Source: Fragilaria crotonensis (taxonomy: Eukaryota > Bacillariophyta > Fragilariophyceae > Fragilariales > Fragilariaceae). Taken from it: a stretch of 64,000 nt of DNA. The translations under genes and the position numbers were made by a program. The DNA lies in NCBI GenBank assembly GCA_022925895.1, contig JAKSYS010000076.1, positions 1 through 64,000 of the forward strand, in the 5' to 3' direction. This document shows, piece after piece, positions 2,479 to 57,119 of the stretch. Each line of letters begins with the position of its first letter. Within the stretch, counting starts at the first letter, position 1. The notes below the pieces were generated by a model. The model had not been told where the DNA came from. It saw nothing but the letters and a program-made list of their open reading frames with translations, and searched no databases.

Positions 2479-2525
2479 ACTTACGCATCCCCACTGCACG
2501 CAACTGTCAATAACAACAACTGACA

Positions 2526-4401
2526 ATGGACGTATCGACGAACTCCGTCGATTCCATTTTGAGTTTCTCAGATGATGACATTGGTAATAAAACACCTCGA
2601 CAACGAGGAACGAAACCAAATCGACAAGGAAGTTTGAATAAATCTGATGTCTTTGCAAATTCACAAATGACGTCGTTTCGAGTCTCACGGAGATCACAGA
2701 TTACCTCGCCGGATGACTTGATGCCAACCTCGCGGCCCAAGAACCTGAGCAAGCGAAGGGGCAGTATGGGAAGCAGAAGCGATGCGATGCGAAGTATGAG
2801 TACCGACGGATTTGAAGAGAGCGGAACGACACTCATTTTGGAAGAGCTTCGACTAGAGACAAACGGCGATAAAGAAGGCGAAATTCTCGCATCCTTGTCG
2901 TTACATGGAGGTGAAAAGGATAGCAGACGAGTATTGAACCCCAATGACAGCTGGATATCAACGTCAAGCAGGAATTTGGGCGGGAATGGTGAATTCGCAA
3001 TGGTGGTAGAGGAGCACGACAATCACGAGGAGGAGGAACGTCAGTTTGATTGGAAACACAATTTTTACCGTCGATTGGCTGTTTTTCGTATCGCATGCGG
3101 AAATTTTGTGAATTCAATGGTAGTGCAAGTTATGATGACAATCACTTTGGTCAGCAATGCAGTCGTCCTTGGGGCTTTGACCTTCGATTCCTTACCGGCA
3201 GTGACTATCTCTGCATTGGAAATTACGGACCTGGTCATGCTGATTGCGTTTACGTTTGAAATCTTACTTCACGGAGTGTACTTGGGACCTCGACAGTTGT
3301 TGAAAGACTCCTGGTTGACGTTCGATTCTGCTGTCATCACAGTAAGCTGGTGCTTTCTGGATTCCAATCTCTCTGTCTTGAGAAGCTTCCGAATTTTCCG
3401 AGTCTTCTCGATTGTGTCGCGTTGGGAGTCACTGAGAACGCTCTTTGAAGCAATTGGGTCGACAATTCCGAAAATGGCATCGATATGGCTTTCCCTATTG
3501 TTATGTACGTCCAATTATCACTTTCGTAATGCTTCACTCCGTCGCATATTTCACTCCTTGTTTCTTGGTTCTCACCCACGCGACTCAACCTCGCTGCAAT
3601 GCACAGTCTTCTACGTGTTCTGCGTACTGTTCACCAACGTTTGGTCAGGTCTTTATGCCGAAGGTTACCTGGATCAAAATTATTTTGGTAACTTGGGACT
3701 TACCTTTGTAACCTTGTTTCAGGTCATGACTTTGGATAGTTGGGCGGAAGTGGCACGACAAGTCATGGTATACGAGCCATGGGCGTGAGTTTACTATATG
3801 CTCGTATCTAAACTGGTGTTTGAAACCTCTTGTATCTCACACCCGATTGCTGTTGATATCGTTTTCATTCTCACTCTTGTTATGCAGTTTCTTTGGGTTT
3901 TTCGTATTCATTCTCTTCACGGCGTTCTTTATTGTCAATTTGGTGGTGGCCGTGATTTGTGAATCGCTCATCCAAATGAGTCGTCGCGCGCCTGATAAGG
4001 ACGAAGACGGGAGTACCATGTCCTTGCAAGCGGACGCCGCTGCACCGAAACATGATGACGGCTTGGAAGTTTTGATGCGTCAAATGCTAGAAAATCAGGC
4101 GGAAATGGCTGCGAGCATACGAGAACTGCGAGCTGAAATCAAAGCTCTGAAAGCAAGAAAGGTACCCATTTATTCCATGTCGACTGCGCAACCGGCGAAG
4201 TGTGTCGGGAATGTCGTTGTGGACTCTGAGAACGTTCCGAAGGACGATGCTTCGTTAGTCCTGAATCCACCAGCAAGATCACATGTGGTGGAAGTGGAGA
4301 CGTCACTGGAAGTCCAAGTGGTGCAAGTGGAACGAACGGATTCATCAGATTCGGATGCACCGCGGGATTACGTAGCCTCACTTCGAGACCACGAGTCGTA
4401 G
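2526..4401 (+). CDS. Single-domain voltage-gated cation channel (EukCatA / bacterial NaV-like)
   Basis: Three exons, 2526-3504, 3607-3784 and 3888-4401, give 556 residues. The introns are 102 and 103 bases with GTACGT and GTGAGT donors; the first is a multiple of three and so stays open. The N-terminal 180 residues are Ser/Arg-rich and probably disordered. Six transmembrane segments follow. S4 carries arginines every third residue (LRSFRIFRVF, about residues 284-298), and the first splice restores S5. The pore has TLDSWAE (about residue 368), matching the TLESWAS filter of NaChBac. S6 ends in NLVVAVICES. A predicted coiled coil (about 443-475, LMRQMLENQAEM) follows, as in bacterial tetrameric NaV channels. 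Known of the family: EukCatA channels of diatoms carry fast Na+/Ca2+ currents. Ion selectivity is not decided here. A decayed partial copy lies at 20160-20912. Confidence 0.87.
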
Positions 4402-7089: not shown

Positions 7090-8292
7090 TTATTTCAGTC
7101 CTAACGCTGCATCCCAGTCTGTTTCAACGCCGTTGTTGTTCGCCCTAAGTGTTCTCCGACTCTGTTCTTGATACGGGAGGTTACCGAATCCATTGACACT
7201 ACCGACTGCATCCACAAACTCGGCGCTTGAAGTCGACAAACTTGCTTCTTCCGGAACTGCTCCACGAAGATACTGCACGCCCCCATCCGCGTGCAATACA
7301 CATAAATCAACTTGACTGCCGCTTCCTAAATCATTGTCAATCCCAGCCTTGATGGCTCGGGCCACCAGTTTCATGGCCTGTTGCAACGACAGTGTCGGTT
7401 TGTATCGTTCCTCCAATACCGCCATGGCAGCCAATCCACCACTTCCCAACGCGGCATACGGAACGTGTTCCAAACTGCCATGGGGATGAATCGCCACCAA
7501 GGTTCCACCCGCGGCTCCGACAATCAAATTGACACCCAAGGAACCGCCAGATTCGTACAAATGATCTTGTAGGAATTTACATACTTGGTGAACCGCAGTA
7601 CTACGTGAGTAGTCTGTGGACAAAGGCGTCTGTGATAGATCACGATTACCAATAGTCTGCTCTTTCAAATGCTGTAATTTCATGGAATATTGCACTTGTC
7701 GTGTCACGGCTTCTAAATCAGCCGACGTGCCTGCGCCACATGCAAAAATGGGTGGAATGGAACCAACGGTAGTGTTAGCCATGGACGTTGTTGTCGTCGT
7801 TGGCAGTTGTGTCGTAAGCGGGTGAATTTTGCTACAATACTTGTCCGCCACCATACGGTCATCCGTTGCGCGAGTATCGGCTCCCAATACGACAGTGCGA
7901 TCGGCCAGAACTAAACCTGCAATGGTAGTGCCGGTGGATCTCAATTTCGATTTTGGTATAGAATTGTCGTCGACACGATCTCTGTCTGGTGTTTGAGGCA
8001 ATGTGAAGGAGAGGCTGACTTCATCGGCAAGCCTCGACTTATATGGATTCGGTTGACGACGCTGGATGAGACGGGGTGATGTCCCGAAGGGGTATTCTCC
8101 ATCGCTGTCCTCGTTATCATCCAGACTCGTAGTCGCGAATTCAACGTCGTCTTGAACAATTCTCGCTCCAAAATACGAGGGACGACATGTTGATTGGGTT
8201 GCTTGAAGTAAGGAATCACTGAGACCAAATTCAGCAGACCAGACTACATGGAAAACTTGGAGTTGCAGCAGCAACACGAGGTGCTTTGTCAT
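7090..8292 (-). CDS. PSMB7: 20S proteasome subunit beta type-7 (beta2) with secretory-like N-terminus
   Basis: One exon, 400 residues, ATG at 8292 (the frame runs further upstream without an ATG). The active Thr is residue 122, in TG/TTIAGL, followed by LGADTRATDD and YCSKI, which supply the Asp and Lys of the Ntn-hydrolase centre. The later motifs CGAGTSADLE, YAALGSGGLAAMAV and GSGSQVDLCV fit beta2 (trypsin-like activity). The segment between Asp and Thr is one residue longer than in the human subunit, and a Thr-rich insertion follows the SKI motif. The prosegment is about 121 residues against about 43 in human, and begins with a hydrophobic signal-peptide-like stretch (residues 4-20, LVLLLQLQVFHVVWSA). 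That is not expected of a cytosolic subunit. Inferred: possible import into the periplastidal compartment. The 5' 250 bases are copied at 20913-21166. Confidence 0.9.
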   Translation of the reverse strand: MTKHLVLLLQLQVFHVVWSAEFGLSDSLLQATQSTCRPSYFGARIVQDDVEFATTSLDDNEDSDGEYPFGTSPRLIQRRQPNPYKSRLADEVSLSFTLPQTPDRDRVDDNSIPKSKLRSTGTTIAGLVLADRTVVLGADTRATDDRMVADKYCSKIHPLTTQLPTTTTTSMANTTVGSIPPIFACGAGTSADLEAVTRQVQYSMKLQHLKEQTIGNRDLSQTPLSTDYSRSTAVHQVCKFLQDHLYESGGSLGVNLIVGAAGGTLVAIHPHGSLEHVPYAALGSGGLAAMAVLEERYKPTLSLQQAMKLVARAIKAGIDNDLGSGSQVDLCVLHADGGVQYLRGAVPEEASLSTSSAEFVDAVGSVNGFGNLPYQEQSRRTLRANNNGVETDWDAALGLK

Positions 8293-8711
8293 GGTTATTG
8301 TCAATGTTAGATGTACGACCTCTAGCGTTGTGAAAAGTGAAAAGTACGAGTACTGGTATGTACAACGAGTATTCTGGACGTTGCTACCATCGGTATAGCT
8401 ACGGGATTGGGCGCTGCTTCGTACAGTAGCAGTATAAGTTATAAAGTACAAACACGTACTCCAATACACTGTGTAATTCTATCCATAACAAGTGTTCTCC
8501 TACCAGGTAGTGTACGACTGCACTCTGCACTCGTATCTGCATATGCATATTACCGGACATCATACCGACGAACTACAAACGAACGTAGGTATACAGTATA
8601 TATTCATTGATGAACATATATACTTAAATCCACAATCGCATATTCGGAAGACGTTCGATTGTCATGAACTGTGCTCGAGATGAAACACAGTCACATTGTT
8701 AATCAGTCAGC
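8293..8711. promoter_or_regulatory. Divergent promoter region, proteasome / rhomboid
   Basis: This 419-base spacer separates the starts of two divergent genes, so it must hold both promoters. It is rich in GTAC/AGTAC words (8340-8520) and ATATATA-type stretches (8600-8630). No individual element can be proven by eye. Confidence 0.4.
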
Positions 8712-20159: not shown

Positions 20160-20912
20160 TCCACTTACGCTTCCCCACTGCCACGCAACTGTCAACAACA
20201 ACAGACAATGGACGCATCGGCGAACTTTTTCGATTCCGTTTGAGCTTTTCGGAGGATGACATTGTTGCCAAAAGATCTCGACAACGAGGAAGTTTGAATA
20301 AATCCGATGTCTTTGGGAAATCACAAATGACTTCGTTTGAGTCTCGCAGAGATTTCAGATCACGTCTCCGGATGACTTTATGCCAGACTTGCTACCCCAG
20401 AACTTGAGCAAGCGAAGGGGCACTATGGGAAGCAAATGCGGTGCAATGCGGAGTATGAGTCCCGACGAATTTTGGAAGAGCTTCGACTGGAGAAACAGGT
20501 GATAAAGATGGCGAGCTTCTCACATCGTTGTCATTACATGGAGGTGAAAAGGATAGCATACGAGTATTGAACCCAAATGACACTCGGATATCAACGTCAA
20601 GTCGTAACGTGGGCGGGAACAATGTATTCACAGTCGTGGTAGAGTAGCGCGACAATCACGAGGAGGAGGAACATCGTTTGATTGGAAACACAATTTTACC
20701 GTCGATTGGCTGTTTTCCGTATTGCATACGGAAATTTTGTGAACTCAATAGTATTGCAAGTCATCATGACAGTCACTTTGGTCTGCAACGCAGTCATCCC
20801 TGGGGGCTTTGACCTTCGATTCGTTGCCGGCACTGACTATCTCTGCGTTGGAAATTACGGACTTGATCACGCTGATCGCGTTTTTACGTTGGGAATCTTC
20901 TTCATTGAGTGT
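20160..20912 (+). pseudogene. Decayed copy of the 5' half of the voltage-gated channel gene
   Basis: Collinear with 2479-3281, from about 50 bases before the channel start through the S2 region, with many substitutions and small indels and several stops in the channel frame (for example TGA near 20239 and TAG near 20645). The copy ends abruptly at about 20912, where sequence matching the proteasome gene begins. The S3-S6 part and filter are absent, so no channel could be made. It is a fragmentary duplicate of a host gene, clearly not recent given the divergence. Confidence 0.88.
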
Positions 20913-21166
20913 ACCGTTGACGACGCTGCATGAGACGGGGTAGTGTCCCGGAGGGGTATGCTACATTCTAGGTCGCTGTCCTAGCTATCATGCAGACAGG
21001 TTATTCGCCAATGATTGTTGCTCCATAAAACGTGCGACAACAATTAGATTGGGTTGTTTGAAGTTAGGAATCACTTAGACCAAAGTCAGCAGACTGGACT
21101 ACATGGTAAACTTGGACTTACTGCAGCCACACGAGGTGCTTTGCCGTGGTTGTCAAATTTTTGATG
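20913..21166 (-). pseudogene. Decayed copy of the 5' end of the proteasome beta2 gene
   Basis: Matches 8052-8306, covering the first roughly 80 codons and a little leader of the proteasome gene, in the same orientation relative to the window. GACGCTG(G/C)ATGAGACGGGG and ACACGAGGTGCTTTG are preserved. It joins the channel copy without a gap, in the same order as the parents occur in the window. A short further match (TAGTGTACGACTG, 21196-21208 against 8508-8520) may extend the collinearity. It lacks the catalytic domain. Confidence 0.85.
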
Positions 21167-40700: not shown

Positions 40701-41405
40701 GAAATTGAAAACTGACACTTCATGTGTTTTGTTGGGTTGGTCCGGTGTCAGAGCTCAAGGCTGCAATGGGTCAAGACAAAGAGATAAAGCTCACAAAACA
40801 AGACAAGCAAGGTCAGGAAACCTCAAACTCTCAGAGTTCATGATTGGAGAGTACTGGTTGTTTCTTCTGGATGAAATCATTGGTAATTGTAGACAAAAAT
40901 GTAAGATAATGCTGACATTAGTGTCCCTGATTATCACGCACAAAGAGTGTACTTCTTAGCTTCCTGCTTGTCAAGATTGACCAACATACCTACTACATCG
41001 ATACAGTTTGACAATCCATTCCATGACAATATTGATGAGGTCTTCTCACAACTTTGAGTCTAGATTATGCACTGATGTCATGCTGCACTGAATACTATGA
41101 TAGCTACTTGTAGCTAGTTGTGCAGAGCAGAACATTACACTACACTTTATGGGTACCACACAATGGATATTGCTAGGTCAAACAAAATGTGCGTCAGCGA
41201 GCAGAACAAACTTCATGGGAGAATACGACGAACGGCTTTATTGAGAACTTATGCTGGGCACCAGACTGAGAGCGACGTTAATAAACAGAGAACGGAACCA
41301 TTCATCCCTCGTGGATGGTATGCTCAATAAGTCACATAAACACAGTTCCTAGTCGCAGCTTTCGCCAGAAGAAACGTAGTCATTCTTGCCCTTACGTTCA
41401 ATTTC
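37707..41405. other. Long AT-rich desert, probably decayed mobile DNA
   Basis: No intact gene. Open stretches (38227-38490 plus, 40301-40678 plus, several on minus 38600-39800) lack recognisable domains. Short Cys/His/Trp clusters on the minus strand near 39400-39800 (NWYEKCRCWW, KSWCTRC) faintly recall copia-type gag regions, but this is not enough for a call. The composition is like the 54.3-57.1 kb desert, which does contain a copia fossil. Confidence 0.35.
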
Positions 41406-43132
41406 CTAGTCGGCGCCTTCGGAGCATACACTCAAACTGCCTTCGTCCTCGTGTTGCTCACTGCTCCGCCCTGCGACCTCACGTATCTCGCCGGGTCGAT
41501 GGAAACGCAGGATACCGTCGGACTCCTCAACACCCAGTATCCGCACGCAATCCGCCCAATACTGCTTGCCGCCGCCTGCGGATGATTTTCTATCCCTCAG
41601 AACGGTGAGATCTCGTCGTAAGGCATCTGGAATGAGTTGGCAGTGAATGCCCAGGTGCGCGATCGCCATGTTTTGAGCTGCTTGATACAATCCATTCAGC
41701 TTCGCGGGATAGTATGTAGCCCCTCGAGTCCTGTGTCGAGGCGGAATTCGGGAACAATGACGGCATCGTATGCCTACTTGGCCTGGGACTATGGGTCTGT
41801 TGCGACCTTGTGCGTTGGATTCGATGTCTTCGTCCTTTGCTTCGAAGATTTCAATCTGTTTCCTCACAAGACATTGGTACGAGGACAAGTTATCGTCGTC
41901 GCAAGACTGCATGTACAAGAGGAGGAGTGGACCGTGATCTACCTCGTCACCATCTTCACCAGGCGCATCATCTCGAGCGTACAGATCTTGGTGCGAGATC
42001 CCCGCGGGCGTCATCGACGAGGCGGCATCCAGGGCTCCCGAATGATGTTTGCGTCCTTGTCTGGCGACTGATAAGGCTACATGCTCACGTTCGTCGATCC
42101 CCACACCGATCGTGAGTCCTGAAGCGTCCGGCGTCGGTAGCTCTTGCACGTTAGCTGAAATTTCTGGAAGTAATCGCTCGCCGGATGATGGTTCCATGCC
42201 TCCTGACGACCCGACCGATAGTGCCTCTTCCATCCAAAGAGAAGGGCGTCCATTAACCGCTCCTGGAATTGGAATTTCATTCCATGGATCAGGAAGATAA
42301 CCACCAATCCCCGCTAACGCAGAACCCATGTTCGAGTAAGGTCCCAAGAATCTACGGTCGAAGGGGATAAGACTTGGGTTCAAGTATATACCAACAGATG
42401 CTACGTCGGGCAACAATTGACCGGTAGAAGCCCGCAAATAACCATCCAGTGAGATCCCACCGTTGGAACCTGATGAATTCCATAAATTAGGAAGCGAAGG
42501 CTGAGATTGGAATCCAGGAAAGTCGAGAGCACCCGGCAACTTGTATTGCTGCTGCTGAAGCCAGGCGGCTCTTTGTGAAAGAAGTTGACGTAGGGATTCA
42601 TCCATGAAAGCACTGGCCCGTTGTTGCAAGATCTGCTGCTGCTGGGCCGAACGAAGGTCTATATGACATAAGAAGTGCGTAAGAAAACGTGTAGACAACG
42701 AAAAGGCAATGCTTCAGTCTCAGCCCAGGTCATGAGCAGGAACAAACGAACTGGATTTCAATGAAGGAGTTGTGGACTCAAGCGATCCTCGATTCTGTGA
42801 CTTCTGCTTCTCGACGGACATTTAGACGATGGGCCAAGCATCGAAAACAGAAGGAACTTGAACATTGTGGCATGTGCTGAACGGATCGGAATCGTGTCTT
42901 ACGACTTACCGAGGCTACGGTAAGCAAGGTTGTGTCCCAGATTCAACGGTGGTTGGTTCCTAAGCCCATGCGTTACACCGTTTCCAAGCCGAGCGATGTC
43001 TGCGACATCATTACACCCATGGGATGGAATGTTGTCGCCATGCCTTCGCTTCTTGGAGTGGGGACGGTTTTCCAGAATGTCGTTACTCGTAGCTTCTGCG
43101 TTCGAACCTCTCCTTGTTGGAGAATCAGACAT
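41406..43132 (-). CDS. Diatom-specific CxxC-domain protein, paralogue A
   Basis: Exon 1 43132-42910 and exon 2 42658-41406 (251-base intron, GTAAGT donor, ATATAG acceptor), 491 residues. The N-terminal part is polar with a nuclear-signal-like basic run (SKKRRHGD), then a Gln-rich stretch after the splice (AQQQQILQQR). The C-terminal 150 residues carry a domain seen repeatedly in diatom proteomes: LYMQSCDDDNLSSYQCLVRKQ, then VGIRCRHC (CxxC), GATYYPAKLNGLYQAAQNMA, CQLIPDALRRDL and GGGKQYWADCVRILGV. The function is unknown. The Cys/His pattern and basic N-terminus suggest a nuclear, possibly DNA-binding protein, but that is inference. A second copy lies 6 kb away at 47448-49355. Confidence 0.8.
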
Positions 43133-43378
43133 GAGACTTCGTTTTTTGGTGTGAGGGGTTATAAAGGCAATGGATGAAGTTCAGCTTGAACTTTTCTCGA
43201 AGTATCAGGTAGCGTCGACCTCGCTAGGGCTGCGATTGCCTTGGCCTCTCTGGCAATTGCAGGCAGATTATAGCAAGGTGCGATGGCCTTGACCAGAACG
43301 CCTGCTTGCGAAAGGCGTTCCCATAGACCGGACGCAACGGTTTGTACGGGGTTCACGTGCTGCCACCTGTGCCACAGG

Positions 43379-43394
43379 CAGGGCTTGTTAGTGA
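43379..43394 (+). repeat. hAT left terminal inverted repeat
   Basis: CAGGGCTTGTTAGTGA, preceded by the target duplication GCCACAGG. It pairs exactly with 46529-46544. Confidence 0.95.
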
Positions 43395-43532
43395 ACCTGT
43401 GACTTAGTGATTTTTTTCACTAACTATCACTAACTAAATAGTTAGTTTCACTATGACTACGCTCTGCCTGCCTTAGTTAATTTAGTAACTAAATAGTCAC
43501 TAAATTCAATATGCACATTTGCTGAGTAATGC

Positions 43533-43575
43533 AGGCTGCGGGCTGCGGACTGCGGACTGCGGACTGCGGACTGCT
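43533..43575. repeat. Short tandem repeat CTGCGGA (7 bp)
   Basis: About five to six units of CTGCGG(A/G) lie inside the hAT element, in the presumed leader of the transposase gene. Confidence 0.85.
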
Positions 43576-43748
43576 CAGAGCAGACGAGTCGTTCAATATT
43601 ATCAAACGGATTTAGAATCCTATATCCGTCACCTTGTCTCTTGTGTCAGCATCCTGCACAATCACAGTAATACACGCTCAGAATTCAATTTGCTTGCTCC
43701 TCTGCCGCCTCACTTGTCAATTCTCACTTGTCATCGGTCGTCGTATTG

Positions 43749-46320
43749 ATGGATATCGAAGGGGTTGGCGGCGATACTGTGCCAGGAGAGGACCGAAACG
43801 AACAACCGTTGCAAGAGATATCAAAGGCGGAGCAGCGCGCAATTACTAAGGTGGCAAAGAGTTCTTGGGTTTGGAATTACGTTTACCAACTAACCAATGG
43901 GCCGATCGAAAAATCTGGCCATGTTTGTAAAATATGCTATGACAATATTGACGTTGACAATGCTCCCATGAGAGTCTTTCAGAAGTGTTTGATTTCTCTC
44001 TACAATGAATCAACTTCAAACGGAGAATCTCATCTTAAAACGCACCACAGGAATGTTATCCCCAAGGCTCAAGGCAAAAAACCAATGGTTGTCAATTCAG
44101 TCGACAGTTCACAATCTGAATCGGGGATGACGACGATGAGCTTATTCCTAGCAAGAGGAAACGACGCCGTCAACAACCAAGTTCATGCTGCAATTGCTAT
44201 GCTGGTTGTCAATCGCCGATTGCCACTGTCATTTGCCACTGATCCTGAATTGACTGCCATCATTGAGCTTGCAAGTCACTTAAAACCTGGATCATACAAG
44301 GCCATGACCCGAGGAAAGATGGACGCCGCCCTTGCCTCAATGTTTTCATCGTTTGTGACGGAAATCAAAGCACGTCTGGCATGTACTCGTTCTGTGTATT
44401 CCTCGGCTGACAACTCCAATGTGCCACCTGGGTGGCTTATTGTTTGTCACGATGGCTGGGACTCCACAATTAAACAATTCTTCGGTGTTTCTGTCTACTG
44501 GATTGATCCTGTTAAGTGGAAACGATATAAAGTTGCACTCGGGCTAGCCATCCCTGATGGCCATTCCGCTGATGCTTGCGCTGCTGCCGCACGATCGATT
44601 CTAAGTCGCTACGATATCCAAGATACGGATCTGTATATGAGCATTAATGACACGACAAATGCATCTGTTGCAACGGGGCGCAGACTTACAGGAGAAGATG
44701 GTGATTGCCATATGCACATGGCTAATCTTGTTGCTGACCACGCATGCGGCAAGCGAACACGATCAGAGAACCATGTCATCATTGATAGCTTCCCCCCGTG
44801 TGAATCATTACGTGTCAAGGCGCGCAAACTCGCAAAGTACGTTTTCAGCAAGAAAGCCAAGTCTCGCCAAGTCCAGTACAAGTCTCGCAATGATAATGCT
44901 AACATGAAAACGATTCGAATCGGGCTCGACAATGACACTCGAATCAGCGGCACGGAGATGATGTTTCAGCAAGTGTTACGCAGCTTCTACACTCTTCATG
45001 TCTATATGAATCAGGAATCCGCTACTGGGCGAGCTCATATGCTTACAGAACAGGAGTGGGAGCTTCTAGCAGGGTTTGAAGCAGTTTTACGCCCAGTTTG
45101 TAACTTCTCGTTTGTGACCCAAGTTGATTCGCAACCGACTGCTGGATCCAGCTGGCTGCAAGTTTTAACGTACGTATGCATTTTCATTTTGCCAATTCGA
45201 AAATTTGTTGTTAATTTCTTTTAAACATTTTCACAGCTGCGTCATGGCCCTCGAAAAGCCTCACTTCAACATTGTGGATATCACGTTCACTGAAGATGAG
45301 GATAAGAAGTGGGATGGGTCTTGTTCCTTCGATGATCTACCAAAGAAGAAAGTTGCCACTGAAGGCTTGCACAAGGACGTACAGGATCTTCGTTATCGTC
45401 TGCTAGATGAGATTAAGAACTACTTCCCGGCTCCAAACGACCACCAATTAGTTGCTATGGTTGTTGATCCAGTTATGATGACTACAGGACTACCATTCCT
45501 TCGAGCAACTGGACAGGGTTACCTTGTTGATAAGGCTCTCGCTGTTTTCAAGAGAATGCTGAATGCAGAGGCTGTGCGGGTTTGGAAACCAACTGTGTTA
45601 GATGAACCCGTCGATTCCAGTTTGATGGATGATAACTATGACAGTGATGATCCATTCTCAACAGCCTTGCGAAATAATGCCATTCCTCGCGAAGAAGCTG
45701 TTGTTCTTGAACCAGTGCAGCAAACTGCATCCCAAATGGCTGATGAAGCATATGATGCATGGATGAATCAGTTGATTAACTGGCATGCTTTCCTTAGAAA
45801 TGATCAGCGCGCCGAACTCTCCGATGTGGAAAAGGTCAAGATATCTCGAGGAGACTGCTTTTTTCTAACCAATAAGGTTGATATTCTGATGTGGTATCGT
45901 CTCAACGGCAAAGATCACACAATGGTCTCTCGTATTGCTGCGCCTGAACTTGCAGCCCCCGATGCAAACGGGATGCAAGAGCGTGTATTTTCATTCTGTC
46001 GTCTAATCGATACTCACATGCGGCAGAGTTTGGGATCATCGAAATTCGAGATGCTCACGCTCCTTGCATTTAACAAAGAGTTTATAAGGTCAGCTAGCGA
46101 AAGTGGCCCTATGAGCATGTCCTGCCTTCTGGATTCCCTTCGCTCATCGACTTCAGCAGTAGCAGCCGCAGCTGCATTGACTGAGTTCTTCGATCTCGAC
46201 ACTGAAGACGCCGAAGATATCCAGGCGACCGAAGAGGGATCTATGGCGGACATGCTAAAGCGTGCGGCCGATTGTATTGACGAAGAGACCTCACACGCGT
46301 CAAAAAGGTTCAAGCATTGA
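43749..46320 (+). CDS. hAT transposase
   Basis: Two exons, 43749-45169 and 45237-46320, with a 67-base intron (GTACGT donor, TTCACAG acceptor), encode 834 residues with no interruption. The N-terminal BED-type zinc finger is visible (CKIC at about 61-64 and HLKTHH at about 98-103, with the aromatic SSWVWNYV before it). The middle has the catalytic-domain pattern WLIVCHDGWDS...FFGVSVYWID, with the acidic residue of the RNase H-like fold. The C-terminal hATC dimerisation region is RVFSFCRLIDTHMR...LTLLAFNKEF. The ATG at 43749 is the first in frame; the open frame begins seven codons earlier without ATG. It cuts and pastes the surrounding element. Confidence 0.9.
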
Positions 46321-46528
46321 ATAGTAACAAGAAGTATACGTTACAATTTACAATAGCTGCATGCACTCTATAGGCTCGCATACACGTATACAGCAAAATG
46401 CTATTCAAAAATAACACATGTCACATGTCTCTAGTGAAACATTTAGTTGATTTAGTTAACTAATTATTTTTAACTACGCTTTTACAGTGGCTTAGTTAGT
46501 GCATACTATAACTAAGCCCAAAACGGAC

Positions 46529-46544
46529 TCACTAACAAGCCCTG
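46529..46544 (-). repeat. hAT right terminal inverted repeat
   Basis: TCACTAACAAGCCCTG, followed by the target duplication GCCACAGG at 46545-46552. Confidence 0.95.
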
Positions 46545-46552
46545 GCCACAGG

Positions 46553-47447: not shown

Positions 47448-49355
47448 TTACTTGCAGCTTTCGTCGGACGAGACGTAGCTGATCTTGCCCTTACGTTCAG
47501 CATCCTTGTCTGCGCCTTCGGAGCATACACTCAAACTGCCTTCGTCCTCGTGTTGCTCACTGCACCGCCCTGCGACCTCACGTATCTCGCCGGGTCGATG
47601 GAAACGTAGGATACCGTCGGATTCCTCAACACCCAGTATCCGCACGCAATCCGCCCAATACTGCTTGCCACCGCCTGCGGATGATTTTCTGTTCCTCAGA
47701 ATGGTGAGATCTCGTCTTAAGGCATCTGGAATGAGTTGGCAGTGAATGCCCAGGTGCGCGCTCGCCATGTTTTGTGCTGCTTGATACAATCCATTCAGCT
47801 TCGCGGGATAGTATGTACAGTAGCCCCTCGAGTCCTGTGTCGAGGCGGAATTCGGGAACAATGACGGCATCGTATGCCTACTTGGCCTGGGACTATGGGT
47901 CTGTTGCGACCTTGTGCGTTGGATTCGATGTCTTCGTCCTTTGCTTCGAAGATTTCAATCTGTTTCCTCACAAGACATTGGTACGAGGACAAGTTATCGT
48001 CGTCGCAAGACTGCATGTACAAGAGGAGGAGTGGACCGTGATCTACCTCGTCACCATCTTCACCAGGCGCATCATCTCGAGCGTACAGGTCTTGGTGGGA
48101 GATGCCCGCGGGCGTCATCGACGAGGCGGCATCCAGGGCTCCCGAATGATGTTTGCGTCCTTGTCTGGCGACGGATGCGGCTACATGCTCACGTTCGTCG
48201 ATCCCCACACCGATCGTGAGTCCTGAAGTGTCCGGCGTCGGTAGCACTTGCGTGTGGGCTGTAATTTCTGGAAGCATTCGCTCTCTAGACGATACTTTCA
48301 TGCCCCTAGACGACCGTGCGGCGATTTCCGCTTGCATCCAAAGAGAAGGGCGTCCATTAACCACTCCTGGAATTGGAATTTCATTCCATGGATCAGGAAG
48401 ATTGCCACCAATCCCCGATAACGCAGAACCCATGTTCGAGTAAGGTCTCAAGAATCTACGGTCCAAGGGGATCAGGCTTGGGTTTAAGCGAGGAGCAACT
48501 CCAGCTACGTTGGACAACAATTGACTGCGAGAAGGGCCCAACAACGATCCTTCAAGTCCGATTCCACTTGTAGTACCTAATAAATTCCATAAATTAGGAA
48601 GCGAAGGCTGAGATTGGAATCCAGGAAAGTCGAGAGCACCCGGCATCTTGAAACGCTGCTGCTGAAGCAAGGCAGCTCTTCGTGAAAGAATTTGACGAAG
48701 GGAGTCATCCATGAAAGCGTTGCTGGTCTGCTGCTGCAAGATCTGCTGCTGCTGCTGAACCGACCGAAGGTCTATATGATAAAGGAGGATTGTTAGAAAA
48801 CGTGTTGATAAAGAATAGGTAATACATCAGTCATAGTGTAACACGTTTCTGCGGATAGAACAGAACTGGATTCACATCAAAGAGTAGTTGACTCACGCCG
48901 TCCTCGTCATTACGACCCTTGCGTGAGGAGCGTTTGGACGCGAACGGGGGGGGAGGGGGGGGCGAGCATCGCGAACGAAAACGACACGAACATGCTGGTA
49001 TGTGATGTACGGCTCGGACTTGATTCGTAGACTTACCGAATTTGAGCTCAGCCAGATTGTGTCCCAGCGGCACCTGCTGTTGGTTCCTTAGCCCGTGCGT
49101 TCCCCCGATTCCAAGCCGAGCGATGTCTGCGACAGAATTCCCTCCTGGTGGGGAAATGCTGCGGCCACTCTTGTGTTTTTTGGTCTTGCGCTTCTCAAAA
49201 ACATCAGCGCTGGGACTTGTACCCACTTCATTCGTGAGATTTCGTTTGCTCGGCGTAAGCTTTACGCAGGCATCTTTTACAACGGATTTCTCGATACTAG
49301 CAGGCCTGCGCCTCTGTTTTCTTCCATCCATCGCAAATGCGTTGAGATCATCCAT
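47448..49355 (-). pseudogene. Diatom-specific CxxC-domain protein, paralogue B, frameshifted
   Basis: Exon 1 49355-49037 and exon 2 from 48771 (265-base intron at the same position and phase as in paralogue A). The open product is 431 residues, ending at 47795. Relative to paralogue A there is a 5-base insertion (GTATGTACAGTAGCC against GTATGTAGCC, about 47816-47822). It shifts the frame inside the conserved domain, so YYPAKLNGLYQAAQNMA and the GGGKQYWADC block, still intact in the DNA down to 47448, are not read. Exon 1 is longer and diverged (KRKTKKHKSGRS basic run), while parts of exon 2 are nearly identical to A. It is either a young pseudogene or a truncated paralogue. Confidence 0.75.
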
Positions 49356-50174
49356 CTGAATCTAATGGAAAGCCTTTATGAGATAAGCTTCCGCAAAAAT
49401 AATTAAATGCAGATGTACGTTCTCAAACCATACCTTTTATCACGAAGGGAATCATCCTGGGTGCTTGCATTCGGAAAGGAGGCAAAAGTTCGTGGTACTT
49501 GTACAGGACCATTGACCTGGAAACATGTGTTTGTCAGTTGTGTCCACGCTTTCCAACTGCCGGTTATCTGTTAATTAAAAATATGTCTGGGGTCTTTGGA
49601 CGTCAGAAAATTGTTTAATTGTCACTGGAAATGTCTGAGTACTCTGGAGTATTGTTTCAATCACGATCCTTTTTCCGTTGTTTCCACCCATATATATGTC
49701 GGTATCAGCATAAATTCTTTCTTGCCGAACCCCTTCTTCCTTTCCTTGGATCAATGGATTTTTGATAGATGTCAAATATGCATGAAAAATTGTACTCCGA
49801 GTATCCCTTTTAATCTTGTTCGCAGCCCTGTTTAGAAGTATTTTTGAGATAAACACGTGACAACGACAAACCTTCAGCGATCTTCGTAAACTTCTAAAAG
49901 AACAAGTCATCGGTCGATCACATCTCGTCAACTATGAAATATTGAACCGTTGAACATGTTAACGATTTTCGTTCCCATTAATAGAGTCATCTGATACGCT
50001 CATAATTGCTTCAATCTGGTACTCGGGGTGAACGTCGGTGCTAAGGCCATCCGCAGCCCATACGTTTTATTGGGTCCCCTATTTCCAGATACAGAATATT
50101 GTGCACCACATTTGGTCATTGATTATGTCCGAAGCGTACGTACGTACTAGTACGACGAACCGAAAGAACCCCCG
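49356..50174. other. Spacer before the Crypton-type element
   Basis: No gene supported. A short palindromic GTAC run (CGTACGTACGTACTAGTACGACG, split around 50136-50158) lies just left of the element. Confidence 0.35.
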
Positions 50175-50207
50175 GTTTTGTAGGTTGTAAATACTGCCTT
50201 TTGGGGT

Positions 50208-50320
50208 CATTATAGGTTTTTTTTAACCTACCAAACCTGAGAGGATCCATCCGACAAATGGATCCTACGTAGATTTTTAGTATAAGTCTACGTTGGATTA
50301 ATTCTTCCTGGGAAGAATTA
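50208..50320. repeat. Cluster of four inverted repeats upstream of the recombinase ORF
   Basis: In order: TAGGTT-tttttt-AACCTA (about 50213-50230); AGGATCCAT-7 bases-ATGGATCCT (50242-50266); ACGTAGA-13 bases-TCTACGT (50267-50293); and TAATTCTTCC-TG-GGAAGAATTA (50299-50320). All arms are perfect. Confidence 0.85.
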
Positions 50321-50322
50321 GG

Positions 50323-50349
50323 TTTTGTAGGTGTCATTGACCTACAAAA
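50323..50349. promoter_or_regulatory. Putative recombinase core-type site, left
   Basis: The arms TTTTGTAGGT (50323-50332) and ACCTACAAAA (50340-50349) are perfect 10-bp inverted repeats around a 7-base centre (GTCATTG). Two inverted binding sites around a 6-8 base crossover region is the general plan of tyrosine-recombinase core sites. It lies 6 bases before the first ATG. Function is inferred. Confidence 0.5.
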
Positions 50350-50355
50350 AAATTG

Positions 50356-53025
50356 ATGAATATTCTATACATTATTGTAGAGCTCCCTGATGATAGACAT
50401 CCTTCAATTGTCTGCGCAGTCGATCAGTCATTTATTGCATACAATCAAATAGAAATGAGTTATCCACTGGAGTGTGAAATGAATGTTGTTGACAATGGAG
50501 AAGCAGAGCAATTGGCACACGCACATCATGATGATTCACATGATGCTGCTGAAATAATCACGAACATGAGGGCTGAAGGATCAGGAGGCACAGAGCTATG
50601 CCCTACTACAGACAGTGCAGCGCATCGCAGATTGGTGATGGAAGTGCACGAAGCTATGACGCCAGCCAACTGTCGCAGAGAAAATCGTTCATTGGCAACC
50701 CGAATGAAGAATCTTTATGAGTCCTGCCGACTTATCATGTGGCTGTATGGGATCAATAATGGTGAAAGTGTGGAGACAAGGCAACGATTGAAACGATTAA
50801 TCGATGACCGTCTGGCTTTTAATATACAAGAGCAAGTGGAGCAGATTGTTGGTGCTGCTACCGAGAGTAAAGTGACAAAGGCTGCTAGGAATGCTATCAA
50901 GCTATGGCTAGAGATTGATGAGGGTCCTGCTCCATTTGCTTTTGCAGGTTTTACATATGACGACTATGCAAATTACCTACGTTCTCAGATGCGGCGAGGC
51001 AATGGTGCTCCTTTGCGAGGAAAATGCTACAAGAACAAGAGGTCGAACTTGAACAATCTTTTCAAGCGGTTCAAGTATCAACCTTCACTTGAATTTCAAG
51101 AGAAGGTAGATGCATACCTTGACGGTGTTGTTCGTGTAGTTGCAGCGGCAGCAGCACAAAATGGGATAGGCTCAATTGTCTCGGGTAAACGAGAAATGTC
51201 TTTTGAATTGTATGAGAAATTAATGGGCTGGTTTTTGATGGAGCGCCTGCATGAAGGTATCTTTGCTCGCGCTTTTCTCGCTCTCACTTGGAATTTAATG
51301 TGCCGAGGTGTCAATTCCTGTGTGTGTTTGAAACATCTCTTGTGGAAGAATGATTCGTTTGGTTTGTCTTTTTCTCACGTGAAAAATGACCAGGATGGCT
51401 CACGTAACCACCATCCCAGACATATCTACGCAAATCCAGATAATTATCTTGTCTGTTGCGTGACAGCACTGTTCGAGTACCTATTGTGTTACCCTGGTTT
51501 GTTCAAGGATGAGCACAGCATGTTATTCCCAGGCCCATGCCAAGAAGCTCGTTTCAGTGATAATTTGTCACGGGTTCTTGAGAAGCATAAAGATGAGCTG
51601 CGAGACCTCGGATACAGTCCTGAAGATATTGGAGTGCACTCCATCAGAAAGGGTGCTGGTACATATGCATCGAGTGGGACAACGGCTGCACCTAGCTCGG
51701 TTGCTGTCAACAACCGTGGCGGGTGGACTCTTGGTGGTTCGAGAGATGTCTATTTGCTTTACGAGCGAGCAGGAGATCAGTATGTCGGTCGTATTCTCAG
51801 CGGAATGGATGTTCTGTCTCCGAAATTTGGTGCAAGCTGCCCAGACTTTATCTACTGTGGGCGACAAGGTGTGGAACTTGAGGGTGGTTCTGAGCATGTT
51901 GCTGATGTTGAACGGTCACAAAACGAGCTTACACATAAAGTTTCCCTTTCACTTGAAGCTTGTTTTGGTAACTTAAACAGCTTTGTGGCAATCCGGAAGA
52001 CCTTACGATTTGGCCTTGCAAGTCTGCTACAACATTTTGATGCAGCAGTTTACTATCATGGTGTGACGGTTAATTCTAATGATCATGTCCTGCATGAGGA
52101 CGATGGCGATAATGCAAGAGTGGCACCATCACCACTGAGTCTTTCTCCAGTGTTCCGAAACGAGATGATACTTAATCTGAAGCAGTATGTGAAGGTCATC
52201 TATCCTGGAGATGCAACCGATGATGTCTCGCAACAATGTATCATGCGACTAACTGGAATTCCACCGCATGTTGTTCAGTTAGCACAAATTAAACAATTGC
52301 AGCAATCTGTTGCTAGTATGAGACCGACAATTCTTGAAGGGGTGGAACAAATGCTGGACGATAGAACAATCAATGGAACTTTATCGGAAACAAGGATGAG
52401 GTCTCTCATGGTGTCGGTAATGGAGGAAGGCCAGAGTCAAATTCTGATGGAAGTTCGCCGTGCAGGTGAGATTCTCACTGAAGTAGCAAGCCAACAGCTT
52501 CCAATAGTACCGCAGATTCCAATTGGAACAAGGTTGTATGAAGGAATGGATGATGGTGCCTCAACGGTGCACAATCTTTGGCTACACAAAGGTAAATTCC
52601 GTCGAGTCCCACCAACTTGGACCTTTCCAAAATGCAATGTGCATTCTGCACACAAACTTTGGCACACACAAAATACCATAACAGGACAATGTGCGTTGCG
52701 ATTTGTCAGACGCAGTGATGTTGACTTTCACAAGGATGCTTACAGGCGACTAGAAGAATTTCGGTTTTTGATGTGGCGGTTCGATGAGGCTGCCAGGCAA
52801 GTTGGTTTGTTGCGAAGCACCATGACAGAGATGGATTGCAATGATGCAATTACTGCGACAATCGAATCCCTAGGAGTTCCATTGGAGACCAATACTGGTC
52901 GTCAAAGGCATCTTGAAAGGCTAAAGTGGACTCGGTACTTAAAACTGGTGCCAGACAAGCGACGACCAACTCGAGAGGAACATCAAACCACATATGGGAG
53001 ACAGACAGGACAAGCAAGGGTATAA
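50356..53025 (+). CDS. Crypton-like tyrosine recombinase
   Basis: A single frame of 889 residues from the first ATG; ATG 50457 (MSYPLECEMNVV) is an equally good start, and a short intron upstream cannot be excluded. The catalytic half, residues about 270-490, shows the family pattern: FLALTWNLMCRGVN with the first catalytic Arg, LSFSHVKNDQDG (candidate catalytic Lys), HIYANPDNYLVCCVTALFEYL, VHSIRKGAGTYAS with the HxxR motif, GGWTLGG (Trp replacing the second His), and YLLYERAGDQYVGR with the Tyr nucleophile. The N-terminal 250 residues include a SAM-like core-binding region. The C-terminal 400 residues, with Cys and His near FPKCNVHSAH, are not recognised. No lesion seen. The enzyme would excise and integrate the element through a 3'-phosphotyrosine. 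Confidence 0.85.
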   Translation: MNILYIIVELPDDRHPSIVCAVDQSFIAYNQIEMSYPLECEMNVVDNGEAEQLAHAHHDDSHDAAEIITNMRAEGSGGTELCPTTDSAAHRRLVMEVHEAMTPANCRRENRSLATRMKNLYESCRLIMWLYGINNGESVETRQRLKRLIDDRLAFNIQEQVEQIVGAATESKVTKAARNAIKLWLEIDEGPAPFAFAGFTYDDYANYLRSQMRRGNGAPLRGKCYKNKRSNLNNLFKRFKYQPSLEFQEKVDAYLDGVVRVVAAAAAQNGIGSIVSGKREMSFELYEKLMGWFLMERLHEGIFARAFLALTWNLMCRGVNSCVCLKHLLWKNDSFGLSFSHVKNDQDGSRNHHPRHIYANPDNYLVCCVTALFEYLLCYPGLFKDEHSMLFPGPCQEARFSDNLSRVLEKHKDELRDLGYSPEDIGVHSIRKGAGTYASSGTTAAPSSVAVNNRGGWTLGGSRDVYLLYERAGDQYVGRILSGMDVLSPKFGASCPDFIYCGRQGVELEGGSEHVADVERSQNELTHKVSLSLEACFGNLNSFVAIRKTLRFGLASLLQHFDAAVYYHGVTVNSNDHVLHEDDGDNARVAPSPLSLSPVFRNEMILNLKQYVKVIYPGDATDDVSQQCIMRLTGIPPHVVQLAQIKQLQQSVASMRPTILEGVEQMLDDRTINGTLSETRMRSLMVSVMEEGQSQILMEVRRAGEILTEVASQQLPIVPQIPIGTRLYEGMDDGASTVHNLWLHKGKFRRVPPTWTFPKCNVHSAHKLWHTQNTITGQCALRFVRRSDVDFHKDAYRRLEEFRFLMWRFDEAARQVGLLRSTMTEMDCNDAITATIESLGVPLETNTGRQRHLERLKWTRYLKLVPDKRRPTREEHQTTYGRQTGQARV

Positions 53026-53061
53026 CAATAATAGGAACATCACTAGGCATCTGGATTATAT

Positions 53062-53977
53062 TTGTCTCCTCAGATTGTTCTCACGTCCATTCCTTGGAAA
53101 TTCCATTTTCCGACACATGTGACAATTTTGCACCACCCGGACTCTGTTTCTTGACCACATTTGGGACCACAAGTCAATGAATTCTCGTCTGTTTGTAGAA
53201 TTTGAAACGGATCCATGATCAGGAAAGTACCTCGAAACTTTCTGTCTCCTCAGATTGTTCTCACGTCCATTCCTTGGAAATTCCATTTTCCGACACATGT
53301 GACAATTTTGCACCACGGACTCTGTTTCTTGACCACATTTGGGACCACAAGTCAATGAATTCTCGTCTGTTTGTAGAATTTGAAACGGATCCATGATCAG
53401 GAAAGTACCTCGAAACTTTCTGTCTCCTCAGATTGTTCTCACGTCCATTCCTTGGAAATTCCATTTTCCGACACATGTGACAATTTTGCACCACCCGGAC
53501 TCTGTTTCTTGACCACATTTGGGACCACAAGTCAATGAATTCTCGTCTGTTTGTAGAATTTGAAACGGATCCATGATCGGGAAAGTACCTCGAAACTTTC
53601 TGTCTCCTCAGATTGTTCTCACGTCCATTCCTTGGAAATTCCATTTTCCGACACATGTGACAATTTTGCACCACCCGGACTCTGTTTCTTGACCACATTT
53701 GGGACCACAAGTCAATGAATTCTCGTCTGTTTGTAGAATTTGAAACGGATCCATGATCAGGAAAGTACCTCGAAACTTTCTGTCTCCTCAGATTGTTCTC
53801 ACGTCCATTCCTTGGAAATTCCATTTTCCGACACATGTGATAAGTTTGCACCACCCGGACTCTGTTTCTTGATCACATTTGGGACCACAAGTCAATGAAT
53901 TCTCGTCTGTTTGTAGAATTTGAAACGGATCCATGATCGAGAAAGTACCTCGAAACTTTCTGTCTCCTCAGATTTTG
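53062..53977. repeat. Tandem repeat, five copies of about 180 bp
   Basis: Units start at CAGATTGTTCTCACG at 53071, 53251, 53429, 53609 and 53789 (periods 180, 178, 180, 180). They are nearly identical, so young. The second unit lacks two C's (CACGGACT against CACCCGGACT). A last partial unit ends near 53975. Each unit starts after TTTCTGTCTCCTCAG, a good 3' splice-site look-alike. It lies within the 3' part of the Crypton-type element. Confidence 0.95.
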
Positions 53978-54293
53978 CTGAAGTCTATTTGCTAATGTGC
54001 GCTGTTGTTATTGTGTTTCAGGTCACTCCGCAAGCAAGAGGTTGTGGCTGTGCGGTAAAAAGGTGGCAGGAACAAAGCCCGATTCATGTGCGACTCATGT
54101 GCGACTCACGTACATTGTGCGCAAAAGTGTATGATGCTCGTATTCTATGTTTTATGCCTAAAAAATCAGGATAGTGTTGTGGTGGGCCTACGTTGCCAAT
54201 TTTGGTTCAGTTAGTCTGAACGTTTGGTAGCGTGGGGGTTGATTGCCCATTCGTCACAGAATCGCAGTATGTAGATTTTGTACCAACATTAAA

Positions 54294-54318
54294 GTAGGTT
54301 GATTAGAACCTACAAAAC
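54294..54318. repeat. Right-end inverted repeat of the Crypton-type element
   Basis: GTAGGTT (54294-54300), GATTAG, AACCTAC (54307-54313), followed by AAAAC. The right arm matches the right arm of the 50323 site (ACCTACAAAA), and 54307-54318 pairs with the left end 50175-50186. Confidence 0.7.
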
Positions 54319-57119
54319 GGAGTGTGAAGTAGAAGGTGTTCATAAACGGAAGACGGAGGACGACAATTCTACGTTTACTGTGTACTGTACTCCTTCCATC
54401 GGTTCGTCGTACTCATACTTGTGCGCAATTTGTACTATGACATACTTGCAATAAATCCTATTTTTAACTACTCGTACTGCGTATGAAGGAAAAAATTGGC
54501 TTCCCGCGACATACAATTAAAAATGTGAATCCAGTCCTTCCAAGGCGGACACCGTGACACTCCTTCTGGGGAGTGAGGTTTGACGAAAGACAGAGGAGAG
54601 CATTTTTAGTCAGCCAAAGATGAGGATGAAAAATGTCAAACGAGCAGCATCTTTTCCCTCTTCAGCTTAACAATTGTTTTTTGACCGATGAAGATGCAGT
54701 TGAGGGTAAAAGGCAACGCAAAGGTAAGTTGTGAGCAGAGTAAATGAAGCACTCTGATTGCACTATGAATTAGTATAAAATATTAGCACATTGGGCCATA
54801 CCATAGTACACAGACCAGAAGCACAAAAAATGTAGCTTGTATGTAGTGGCACTGGTAAACTGTTGTGGTGGAAGATACGAGTGACATAGTGTAGCAGGCA
54901 ATTTGTTATGGTACACCAGCAGGCGCAATGTGACAGGCAGGATAGAGAAGAAAGAAATGTATTGACATGCTCCCCCATTATTGGCATCATAGATCTTTGA
55001 ATGCAGAGCATTACACATGGAGAGAGAATCAACAAGGGACCCAAGGAGCACCATAGCTAGTGTCCCATGAGATGACAAGCATATTGTTGATGGTGTAGAG
55101 TGGACCCGAGGGATTCGGTCAAAGCATCAGCACTGTTCATGATGCCATGGATGTGAGCAAAGACAATTTCATGCTGTGCTTCCATTACTGGATTATGAAG
55201 TGTTGAATGCCATTGTGATGAGATTGCAGGGTAATGCAACTGGCGAGCAATGGCCATCACTATATATGCAGCAGTGTTGTCTTCACAGAGTACAGCCAGA
55301 TCAGGCTGACTGCGGATAACCGACTTCGGCAAAGTTTGATCACAAATACATCTCAACTTTGGCAGGGTGAACCGCAGCAATGAATTCCGCTTTGGTAGAG
55401 CTGGCTGGTAGAGATTGTTGATTGAATTCTTGATTTCTGTGCCAAAGGCGGGCCTACACCGAACATGAAAACAAGTCATGTGATAGAATGGCATTAATTA
55501 GAATGGCATTCATTAATGAGATCAGTGGCATGGGCAATATCTACAAATCCACCAGGAGGAATAATGGCAGTCAAGAAATACTTTGCATGGTCGGTGAAGA
55601 AGTATCACAAGTGGATGTGAGAGGTGGCTGGGAGCGCGTCCGTGTGTTGTGCAGACGTAGTTACAATGAATTCTTCCGTGAGGTGAGTCCACCAGCCCGC
55701 TCTGATGTTGGCTGGATTTGAACGTATACGTCTTTTGAGTGGCAAAACTACCTGTCAATGTAGCTGGAAAAAGGTACCATGTGGTGCCCTACTGTTTGGA
55801 GACCTAGAAGGTCACTGCCCAAGGACACTGAATTTAGTGAATGAGGTGAGTTTTAACCTGTGATGGATGTTTATTTCACTTAAAAAACCATTGCTGTCAT
55901 ATTCCCCAAACCATACCACCAAAGCAGTTCTGTCCTTGCTGGAGCTCGACTGTCGCAATTGTTCCTCAGTCACCTTTTAAGCAATGAGTGACAACGCCAT
56001 TTTTCCACATCAAAGATGCTTCATCTTTTGGCCCAGATTGATGAACATCAGCAATGACCAAGTATGTGAGCACTCAACTACACGGCGTAAGAATTCCTTG
56101 GATTTGCAGCTGCCACAAAAGGTTTGAATATGGAAGATTAGCATTAAGGGGCAAGATATGCAATCTTGATACTGTGAATAAAGCCCCTTGCCTCACCACT
56201 AAGTAGGAATTTGATGCTTTGAGGTTAAGAACACATATAACTCGTCACATTTAGTTGCTTAAACAAACAAGACCTTATGGTTTCTACATGCTTGTTCTTC
56301 TTGCAAATTGTGTGGCATTCAGATGGAACAAAATGATCTGAGCAAAACAAGATCTTGCAATGCAACAGTTCTTTGTCAACAACAAACAACAGATGGTAGG
56401 GCTGCACTCTTTGGCATGAAAATTCTACAAGCATCATCTTTGCCTAGAGGAGAATTCATTTGCAGGATTGCAATAACCAAATGCACCACATCAACGTCAA
56501 ATGGGTAAAAGAACCTGATAAAAAGGAACATCAGAAAACAACTGAAAATGGTCAATGAAGATTTCAACTCGTCTGGTGATAAGAAATAGATTAGAAAAGG
56601 CTTTCACCAGTATGAGGATTTTTCGTTTGACCTGATCTTTCATTGTAATGCCACCATTTTTCCACCAACAAGGCCTCAAGTAAGGAGAACATTCACTTGG
56701 CTGGAGTTGAGTTGTTGTTTGAAAACCTTTTAAAAAAGGACGAAATTGTTACTAATTTGGTAAAAACAAGCAACGGAGATGGTTCGTGATTTATCTGTGT
56801 ATCATATTTCTTGTTGACATACCTTCGGGACGCACTCTCAATCTACCTGTACTACGGTACCTGGTAGTATGGAACATTCCGTACGCCCCTGTGGATGTAC
56901 CTTTTCTATGTACTGGTACGAGCACAGTACCGGTGCCACGCTGAGCCATCAGTGCCATCATTCCACCATCTTTTTTTTCTGCTTGTTGTGCACCTGACTA
57001 TCGCTTTTCGTCGTAAGCTTATTCTCGAGTTAAAGGCATCCTCTCCATTGAATTGATTTAAACATCTAGCACCCCGCCTACAATTGGCTGTCGCTTGCCG
57101 TTGGCTTCGATCTCCCGCG
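54319..57119. other. AT-rich desert with retroelement remains
   Basis: No host gene is supported. It contains the copia fossil listed separately. 56830-56940 is GTAC-rich and lies before the helicase gene, probably including its promoter. Confidence 0.4.
55057..55494 (-). mobile_element. Ty1/copia retrotransposon fragment, RNase H end (fossil)
   Basis: The minus strand encodes a stretch with the C-terminal RNase H pattern of copia elements, AVLCEDNTAAYI then IHGIMNSADALTESLG and a closing HLMGH, as in diatom CoDi elements. Only this end is recognisable. No LTRs are seen. It is an old, broken fragment. Confidence 0.6.

Follow-up and report, generated by a model that had tools for sequence, protein, structure and literature searches.

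Among the described systems closest to the locus reported here, a stretch of about 4.1 kb from the diatom Fragilaria crotonensis, are the Cryptons and the integrating phaeoviruses. The available part of a Crypton survey (Kojima and Jurka 2011, PMC3212892) reports that Cryptons lack terminal inverted repeats (TIRs) as well as long direct repeats and carry 4-6 bp terminal direct repeats, animal Cryptons being without terminal repeats; in the described CryptonS elements the terminal direct repeats are 5-6 bp long and mostly TATGG. The same excerpt describes Crypton boundaries as hard to characterize and states that tyrosine recombinases generally bind inverted arms of 11-13 bp around a 6-8 bp spacer. 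For diatoms, the accessible portions of two further papers give a table row for Cryptons in Phaeodactylum tricornutum with the number 13 (PMC5859163) and name the Crypton superfamily for the Cyclotella cryptica genome (PMC7466962). The integration of phaeoviruses (Ectocarpus) in brown algae is described, in the available text of PMC13236599, as involving a tyrosine recombinase gene close to one end, a short attP core with inverted repeats on either side, and a very short homology (CC) with the target. The DNA analysed here, referred to as the window, comprises positions 1 to 64,000 of contig JAKSYS010000076.1 (assembly GCA_022925895.1). An earlier sequence-only reading had proposed an apparently intact Crypton-type element at 50175-54318. 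The long reading frame, the active-site motifs and the clustering of half-sites in the element support reading this stretch as an apparently intact recombinase-only mobile element with one gene and several predicted binding sites (Table 1).

The perfect 12-bp inverted repeat that had been noted at the possible ends was verified, and these two copies are the only exact ones of the terminal 12-mer in the 64 kb. With up to two mismatches the 12-mer occurs at 12 places in the window, 6 of them inside 50175-54318. No window match with 0-1 mismatch, of which there are four, falls outside the proposed ends, and the motif therefore looks like the element's own. The terminal 12-mer also recurs within the element as paired half-sites, which the sequence-only reading had missed. 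When each inward pair (12-mer, spacer of 3-10 bp, reverse complement) across the window was scored, the three top pairs of the whole window were S2, S3 and S1, with 21, 20 and 19 of 24, respectively. For comparison, 60 Markov windows matched in length were scored with spacers 5-8; their highest inward score was 16 in 27 windows, 17 in 25 and 18 in 8, and none reached 19; five further Markov windows with spacers of 3-10 gave one score of 18 and none above. Neither S1 nor S2 depends on the ends. The element thus has internal copies of its terminal 12-mer, a half-site, and the supposed 'terminal inverted repeats' are most likely recombinase arms, that is, the halves of a recombination site, and not a novel transposon end. 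The earlier claim of an end architecture foreign to the Crypton family is probably a misreading, since inverted arms around a core are typical of tyrosine recombinases.

The sites have the geometry generic to tyrosine recombinases: 12-6-12 in S1 and S3, 12-5-12 in S2 (alternatively readable as 11-7-11) and 13-7-13 at the joined ends described below, with imperfect arms in S1-S3. These arm and spacer sizes fit the rule of PMC3212892 and thus support a tyrosine recombinase independently of the protein. The DNA bound by such enzymes is seldom visible; here, the half-sites are legible from the sequence, so that a specific attP and a binding motif can be proposed and the empty site predicted.

Table 1. 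Coordinates of the element's gene, candidate recombination sites and associated repeats in the window
Feature	Position	Strand	Basis
Outer 15-bp perfect inverted repeat AGTACGACGAACCGA, left copy	50149..50163	+	repeat scan
CGG, left copy of 3-bp direct repeat, candidate crossover core	50173..50175		junction comparison
Left terminal half-site GTTTTGTAGGTT, 12/12	50175..50186	+	perfect 12-bp inverted repeat
GTAGGTTG, left copy of 8-bp direct repeat, crossover in rival model	50180..50187	+	repeat scan
Leader, chain of distinct hairpins including GGATCCAT/ATGGATCC, ACGTAGA/TCTACGT, TAATTCTTCC/GGAAGAATTA and S2	50187..50355		folding
Site S1, inward pair 8/12 + N6 + 11/12, total 19/24, in leader	50207..50236		pair scan
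Site S2, inward pair 11/12 + N5 + 10/12, total 21/24, 5 bp before ATG	50322..50350		pair scan
889-residue reading frame, putative tyrosine recombinase	50356..53025	+	ATG at 50356, stop at 53025, no internal stop; motifs and P1 Cre alignment
Tandem array of 180-bp units (one of 178 bp), 5.1 copies, 98% matches	53063..53974		repeat analysis
Site S3, inward pair 8/12 + N6 + 12/12, total 20/24, at right end	54289..54318		pair scan
GTAGGTTG, right copy of 8-bp direct repeat	54294..54301	+	repeat scan
Right terminal half-site AACCTACAAAAC, 12/12	54307..54318	-	perfect 12-bp inverted repeat
CGG, right copy of 3-bp direct repeat	54318..54320		junction comparison
Outer 15-bp inverted repeat, right copy	54399..54413	-	repeat scan

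The uninterrupted open reading frame (ORF) for a putative tyrosine recombinase was found as the sequence-only reading had described it. The Arg, candidate Lys, HxxR and Tyr motifs named there occur in order along the ORF at R317 (WNLMCRG), K343 (candidate), H428-S-I-R431, and Y466 and Y469, with W457 between the HxxR motif and the Tyr residues. Residues 271-510 aligned with P1 Cre with a score of 70 compared to a shuffle mean of 44.4 (standard deviation 6.3), and 0 of 200 shuffles scored as high. This alignment was collinear: H428, R431 and W457 coincided with H289, R292 and W315 of Cre, and the blocks HSIRKGA and RGGWT paired with HSARVGA and AGGWT, followed by a Tyr at Cre Y324. The aligned Cre residues are catalytic. 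Y466 lies nine residues past the Trp, as in Cre, and Y469 is the Tyr placed by the gapped alignment, suggesting that the nucleophile is either Y466 or Y469. P1 Cre and lambda Int served as yardsticks, and three other proteins of the window were compared with both as controls; the best of these six comparisons had a score that was reached by 8 of 100 shuffles. The GC content at third codon positions was 0.39 in the recombinase ORF compared to 0.45-0.51 in seven other ORFs of the window.

The ORF had no match in Pfam, PHROGs or PDB sequences at an E limit of 10, the filters of the profile scans discarding most matches above E ~0.1, and NCBIfam gave a single irrelevant match (E = 0.05). No tblastn match was obtained against phages and plasmids with the whole protein (E up to 1) or with its 59-residue HxxR-Tyr block (E up to 10). 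In viral contigs, nothing fitted six peptide patterns from the whole protein, and 125 stretches fitted a pattern from the 59-residue block, none of them a relative by tblastn. The degenerate DNA pattern for HxxRKG...GDxYVG had no match in viral contigs and one in genome contigs, and that for HxxRK...GW had one in viral contigs; both matches were rejected as relatives, their translations reaching a stop inside the matched stretch. The site pattern TTTTGTAGGT-N8-ACCTACAAAA occurred in six stretches of viral contigs, none encoding a relative (best tblastn E 0.18), and these were likewise rejected and taken as unrelated hairpins, perhaps transcription terminators. As the profile libraries and databases yielded no relative, the assignment of the ORF product to the tyrosine recombinases is putative and rests on the motifs together with the weak collinear alignment to Cre.

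The sequence-only reading had reported no target duplication, and beside the 12-bp repeat we found a 3-bp CGG direct repeat and no ordinary duplication. Joined at this CGG, the two ends read TTAGAACCTACAA-AACGGTT-TTGTAGGTTGTAA, in which 15 of the first 16 pairs are symmetric; taken as a 13-7-13 site, the junction has pairing at 12 of the 13 arm bases. The ORF, its motifs, the clustered half-sites and the symmetry of the joined ends support, at the sequence level, a DNA transposon mobilised by its own tyrosine recombinase, with arms that would meet in the excised circle around CGG. We hold this reading tentatively, at somewhat less than an even chance. From these features we infer recombinase binding, circle formation, crossover at CGG, autorepression and mobility. 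The recombinase would be expressed and would bind the 12-bp half-site (core GTAGGTT) at the ends. Cutting in or near the CGG common to both ends would release the element as a circle, in which the ends would meet as the palindromic 13-7-13 attachment site (predicted circle junction, AACCTACAAAACGGTTTTGTAGGTT), leaving a predicted empty site of CCCCCGGAGTG / AACCCCCGGAGTG, which would be non-symmetric (4/14 at pairs 4-17). Reinsertion would occur where a target has a short match to the core; it would therefore produce no ordinary target duplication, and the arms carried by the element would resemble TIRs. S1, S2 and S3 would be extra recombinase binding sites, and S2, just upstream of the start codon, may be an autoregulatory site that lets the recombinase repress its own gene.

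A split target is the strongest alternative, although we consider it somewhat unlikely. Here the 12-bp repeats would be host-derived or older-element halves of a perfect palindromic 12-6-12 site split by the insertion, with crossover in the 8-bp direct repeat GTAGGTTG, a repeat absent from the sequence-only reading. The element proper would then span ~50180-54293, and its excision would restore a lox-like target. The predicted empty site, GTTTTGTAGGTT-GATTAG-AACCTACAAAAC (GTTTTGTAGGTTGATTAGAACCTACAAAAC), is a perfect 12-N6-12 palindrome (13/14 at pairs 4-17) and shares polarity and spacer with S1, S3 and, with N5, S2, whereas the circle (predicted junction, ATTAAAGTAGGTTGTAAATAC) would be left with a poor site in which 5 of 14 pairs are symmetric. 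GTAGGTTG is the longest direct repeat between the border regions 50120-50260 and 54230-54430, but seven of its eight bases are simply arm sequence. S3 can be read as a classical attR whose inner arm is weak and whose outer arm is strong; at the left end, no inner partner exceeds 4/12. A host site identical at 24/24 to the element's internal motif is also unlikely unless insertion is strictly site-specific, in which case a longer common core would be expected. Two points tip us narrowly towards arms carried by the element: the four close matches to the 12-mer all lie at or between the ends, so that the motif would belong to the element itself, and for phaeovirus recombinases in brown algae an arrangement of inverted repeats about a tiny attP core has been published (PMC13236599, available text).

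Several observations weigh against arms carried by the element. The 3-bp CGG at the junction is weak taken alone. Symmetry at pairs 4-17 is 12/14 in the circle of the CGG model compared to 13/14 in the empty site of the split target. Beside the 12-bp repeat, 3/4 bases match inward compared to 2/4 outward, which gives no discrimination. Symmetry does not decide between the two readings. The polarity of S1-S3 is opposite to that of the arm pair in the predicted circle, and only one polarity is expected to be catalytic. S3 is favoured by construction, its 12/12 arm being the right terminal repeat, and therefore only its 8/12 partner is independent (chance about 0.03-0.04). A pair of the outward polarity, AACCGAAAGAAC-CCCCG-GTTTTGTAGGTT at 50158-50186 (21/24), also uses a terminal arm, and its left outward partner (9/12, spacer 5) does not keep the register that the CGG geometry requires. 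By chance this 9/12 partner would be expected at about 0.004-0.006; the remaining partners beside the terminal arms are the right inward one of S3, a left inward one of 4/12 at best and a right outward one of 6/12. In the viral contigs, genome contigs, phages and plasmids searched, the host genome not among them, neither a second copy of the element nor an empty site was found, and the window itself contains no second copy. For the enzyme, the alignment of the whole protein with Cre was weaker, its score being reached by 6 of 200 shuffles. Lambda Int gave no signal, with the score reached by 108 of 200 shuffles for the whole protein and 162 of 200 for the fragment. No homolog of the recombinase was found in viral contigs, genome contigs, phages or plasmids, and an AlphaFold2 single-sequence model of residues 88-505 was unusable (pLDDT 37, pTM 0.23).

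The window also contains an outer 15-bp inverted repeat that the sequence-only reading lacked, located 12-26 bp beyond the left end and 81-95 bp beyond the right end. This repeat could be the ends of a target resembling a miniature inverted-repeat transposable element (MITE). It is improbable that the 15-bp repeats are themselves the ends of a larger unit, or that the element lies inside a MITE-like repeat (~151 bp when emptied) bounded by them. The repeat is perfect and closely brackets the element, and it is one of four perfect inverted-repeat pairs of at least 14 bp, 100-6000 bp apart, in the window (7 overlapping 14-mer matches), the ends of a hAT-like element being another. However, no target duplication was seen by eye at its ends, the 15-bp motif is unrelated to the recombinase half-sites, and its 13-bp core has no other window copy at <2 mismatches. 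A fixed or domesticated recombinase gene, now immobile and with its own operator sites, of which the terminal repeat would be two more, is very improbable: S2 directly before the ATG, half-sites on both sides of the gene and the lack of a second copy in the window would fit it, but the gene retains its catalytic residues and is bracketed by a perfect 12-bp repeat, and the 98% matches of the array suggest a young age.

The locus resembles CryptonS in being a DNA element that encodes a putative recombinase but neither a reverse transcriptase nor a DDE transposase, in its long C-terminal part past the catalytic residues, and possibly in host group, CryptonS being known, in the available text of PMC3212892, from oomycetes and the diatom P. 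tricornutum. The absence of these two enzymes was judged from continuous ORFs, of which a single long one, without a Pfam domain, lies between the ends; it does not cover spliced or decayed genes. Four additional ORFs of 109-197 codons occur in 50175-54318, two overlapping the recombinase and two in the array. In contrast to CryptonS, the locus has the 12-bp inverted repeat together with a 3-bp CGG or 8-bp GTAGGTTG direct repeat, so that neither candidate junction shows the 4-6 bp terminal direct repeats of Cryptons. The 5-6 bp direct repeats and TATGG termini of CryptonS are absent from the proposed ends; between 49800 and 54800, TATGG on either strand occurs only at 50058, 50746, 50903, 52676, 52993 and 54796. 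If the proposed ends are right, the perfect inverted repeat also departs from the lack of TIRs ascribed to Cryptons. For these reasons the element was not filed as CryptonS. In the titles and abstract openings of the Crypton and tyrosine-recombinase literature, we met no report of TIRs in Cryptons among the matches listed. The element may work like a Crypton or like a phaeovirus-type recombinase element. It is unlikely, though conceivable, that it represents a eukaryotic recombinase-only transposon family apart from the described Crypton groups, with lox-like arms at both ends, a leader of recombinase-binding palindromes and hairpins, a 3-bp target match as sufficient, and self-limited expression. 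At this locus a eukaryote may have a self-contained system of the Cre/lox type.

The likeness to phaeoviruses, as far as the available text of PMC13236599 describes them, is in the tyrosine recombinase gene (putative here) close to one end, and in the inverted repeats around a tiny core and the very short target homology that arms carried by the element would entail. The phaeoviral genomes are 288-407 kb, in contrast to the ~4.1 kb and one gene here, and the two are likened by description and not by recombinase sequence. DIRS-like retrotransposons likewise combine a tyrosine recombinase with inverted terminal repeats, and part of their interior is related to the ends (PMC6681497, available part). 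They are unlikely here because the recombinase is the sole long ORF between the ends; no long ORF able to hold a reverse transcriptase or RNase H is present in 50175-54318. P1 Cre shares with the ORF product the HSxRxGA and GGWT...Y blocks and the Trp-to-Tyr spacing (to Y466), and also acts on palindromic arms around a short core, in a 13-8-13 layout at loxP. The alignment is weak, however, and the ORF product has 889 residues compared to the 343 of Cre, and ~420 of its residues, at the C-terminus, are unassigned; Cre works for phage P1 and not for a transposon. Integrative elements of the Tn916 type have imperfect terminal inverted repeats, which are brought together in a circle with a short coupling sequence between them, as the favoured model proposes for the locus. 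They differ in being bacterial, conjugative and ~18 kb long, and are likened by description.

The left hairpins noted in the sequence-only reading were borne out by folding. As single-stranded DNA, 50175-50355 gave z = -5.24 with 0 of 200 shuffles equally stable, and as RNA z = -4.80 with 1 of 200. The right tail (53976-54330) was not unusually structured (z = -0.91, 15/100 shuffles). The 180-bp array on the right, also reported earlier, was recovered directly 3' of the recombinase gene. Each of its units contains GGATCCAT, which also makes the leader hairpin at 50243-50265. Its minus strand has open frames of up to 197 codons, which are probably meaningless. With two copies in the leader and one per array unit, seven of the nine window copies of GGATCCAT lie inside the element. 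The leader and the right non-coding part have more 7-mers in common than any of 59 control pieces, although for 8-mers and 9-mers the value was reached by 3 and 12 of the 59 controls, respectively. Since the array copies represent one event and the 8- and 9-mer controls reach the observed sharing, GGATCCAT as an accessory site is kept as no more than a hint.

Other features of the window include the hAT-like element mentioned above, at 43371-46552. It has a 16-bp TIR, CAGGGCTTGTTAGTGA, at 43379 with its complement ending at 46544, and a perfect flanking 8-bp duplication, GCCACAGG; the hAT label was given because of these terminal repeats and this target-site duplication. Its two overlapping ORFs (43728-45224 and 45205-46320) have no Pfam match. 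A gene region present in two copies, 41355-43007 and 47454-49134, which are 86% identical, flanks this element as a local duplication, and the ORF of the copy at 41355-43007 has no Pfam match. A minus-strand ORF at 55060-55494, also without a Pfam match, looks by eye like the terminal part of a Copia-type RNase H region. Dispersed duplicates that are about 81-83% identical pair 2478-3281 with 20162-20914 and 8052-8296 with 20916-21151, all within the left third of the window.

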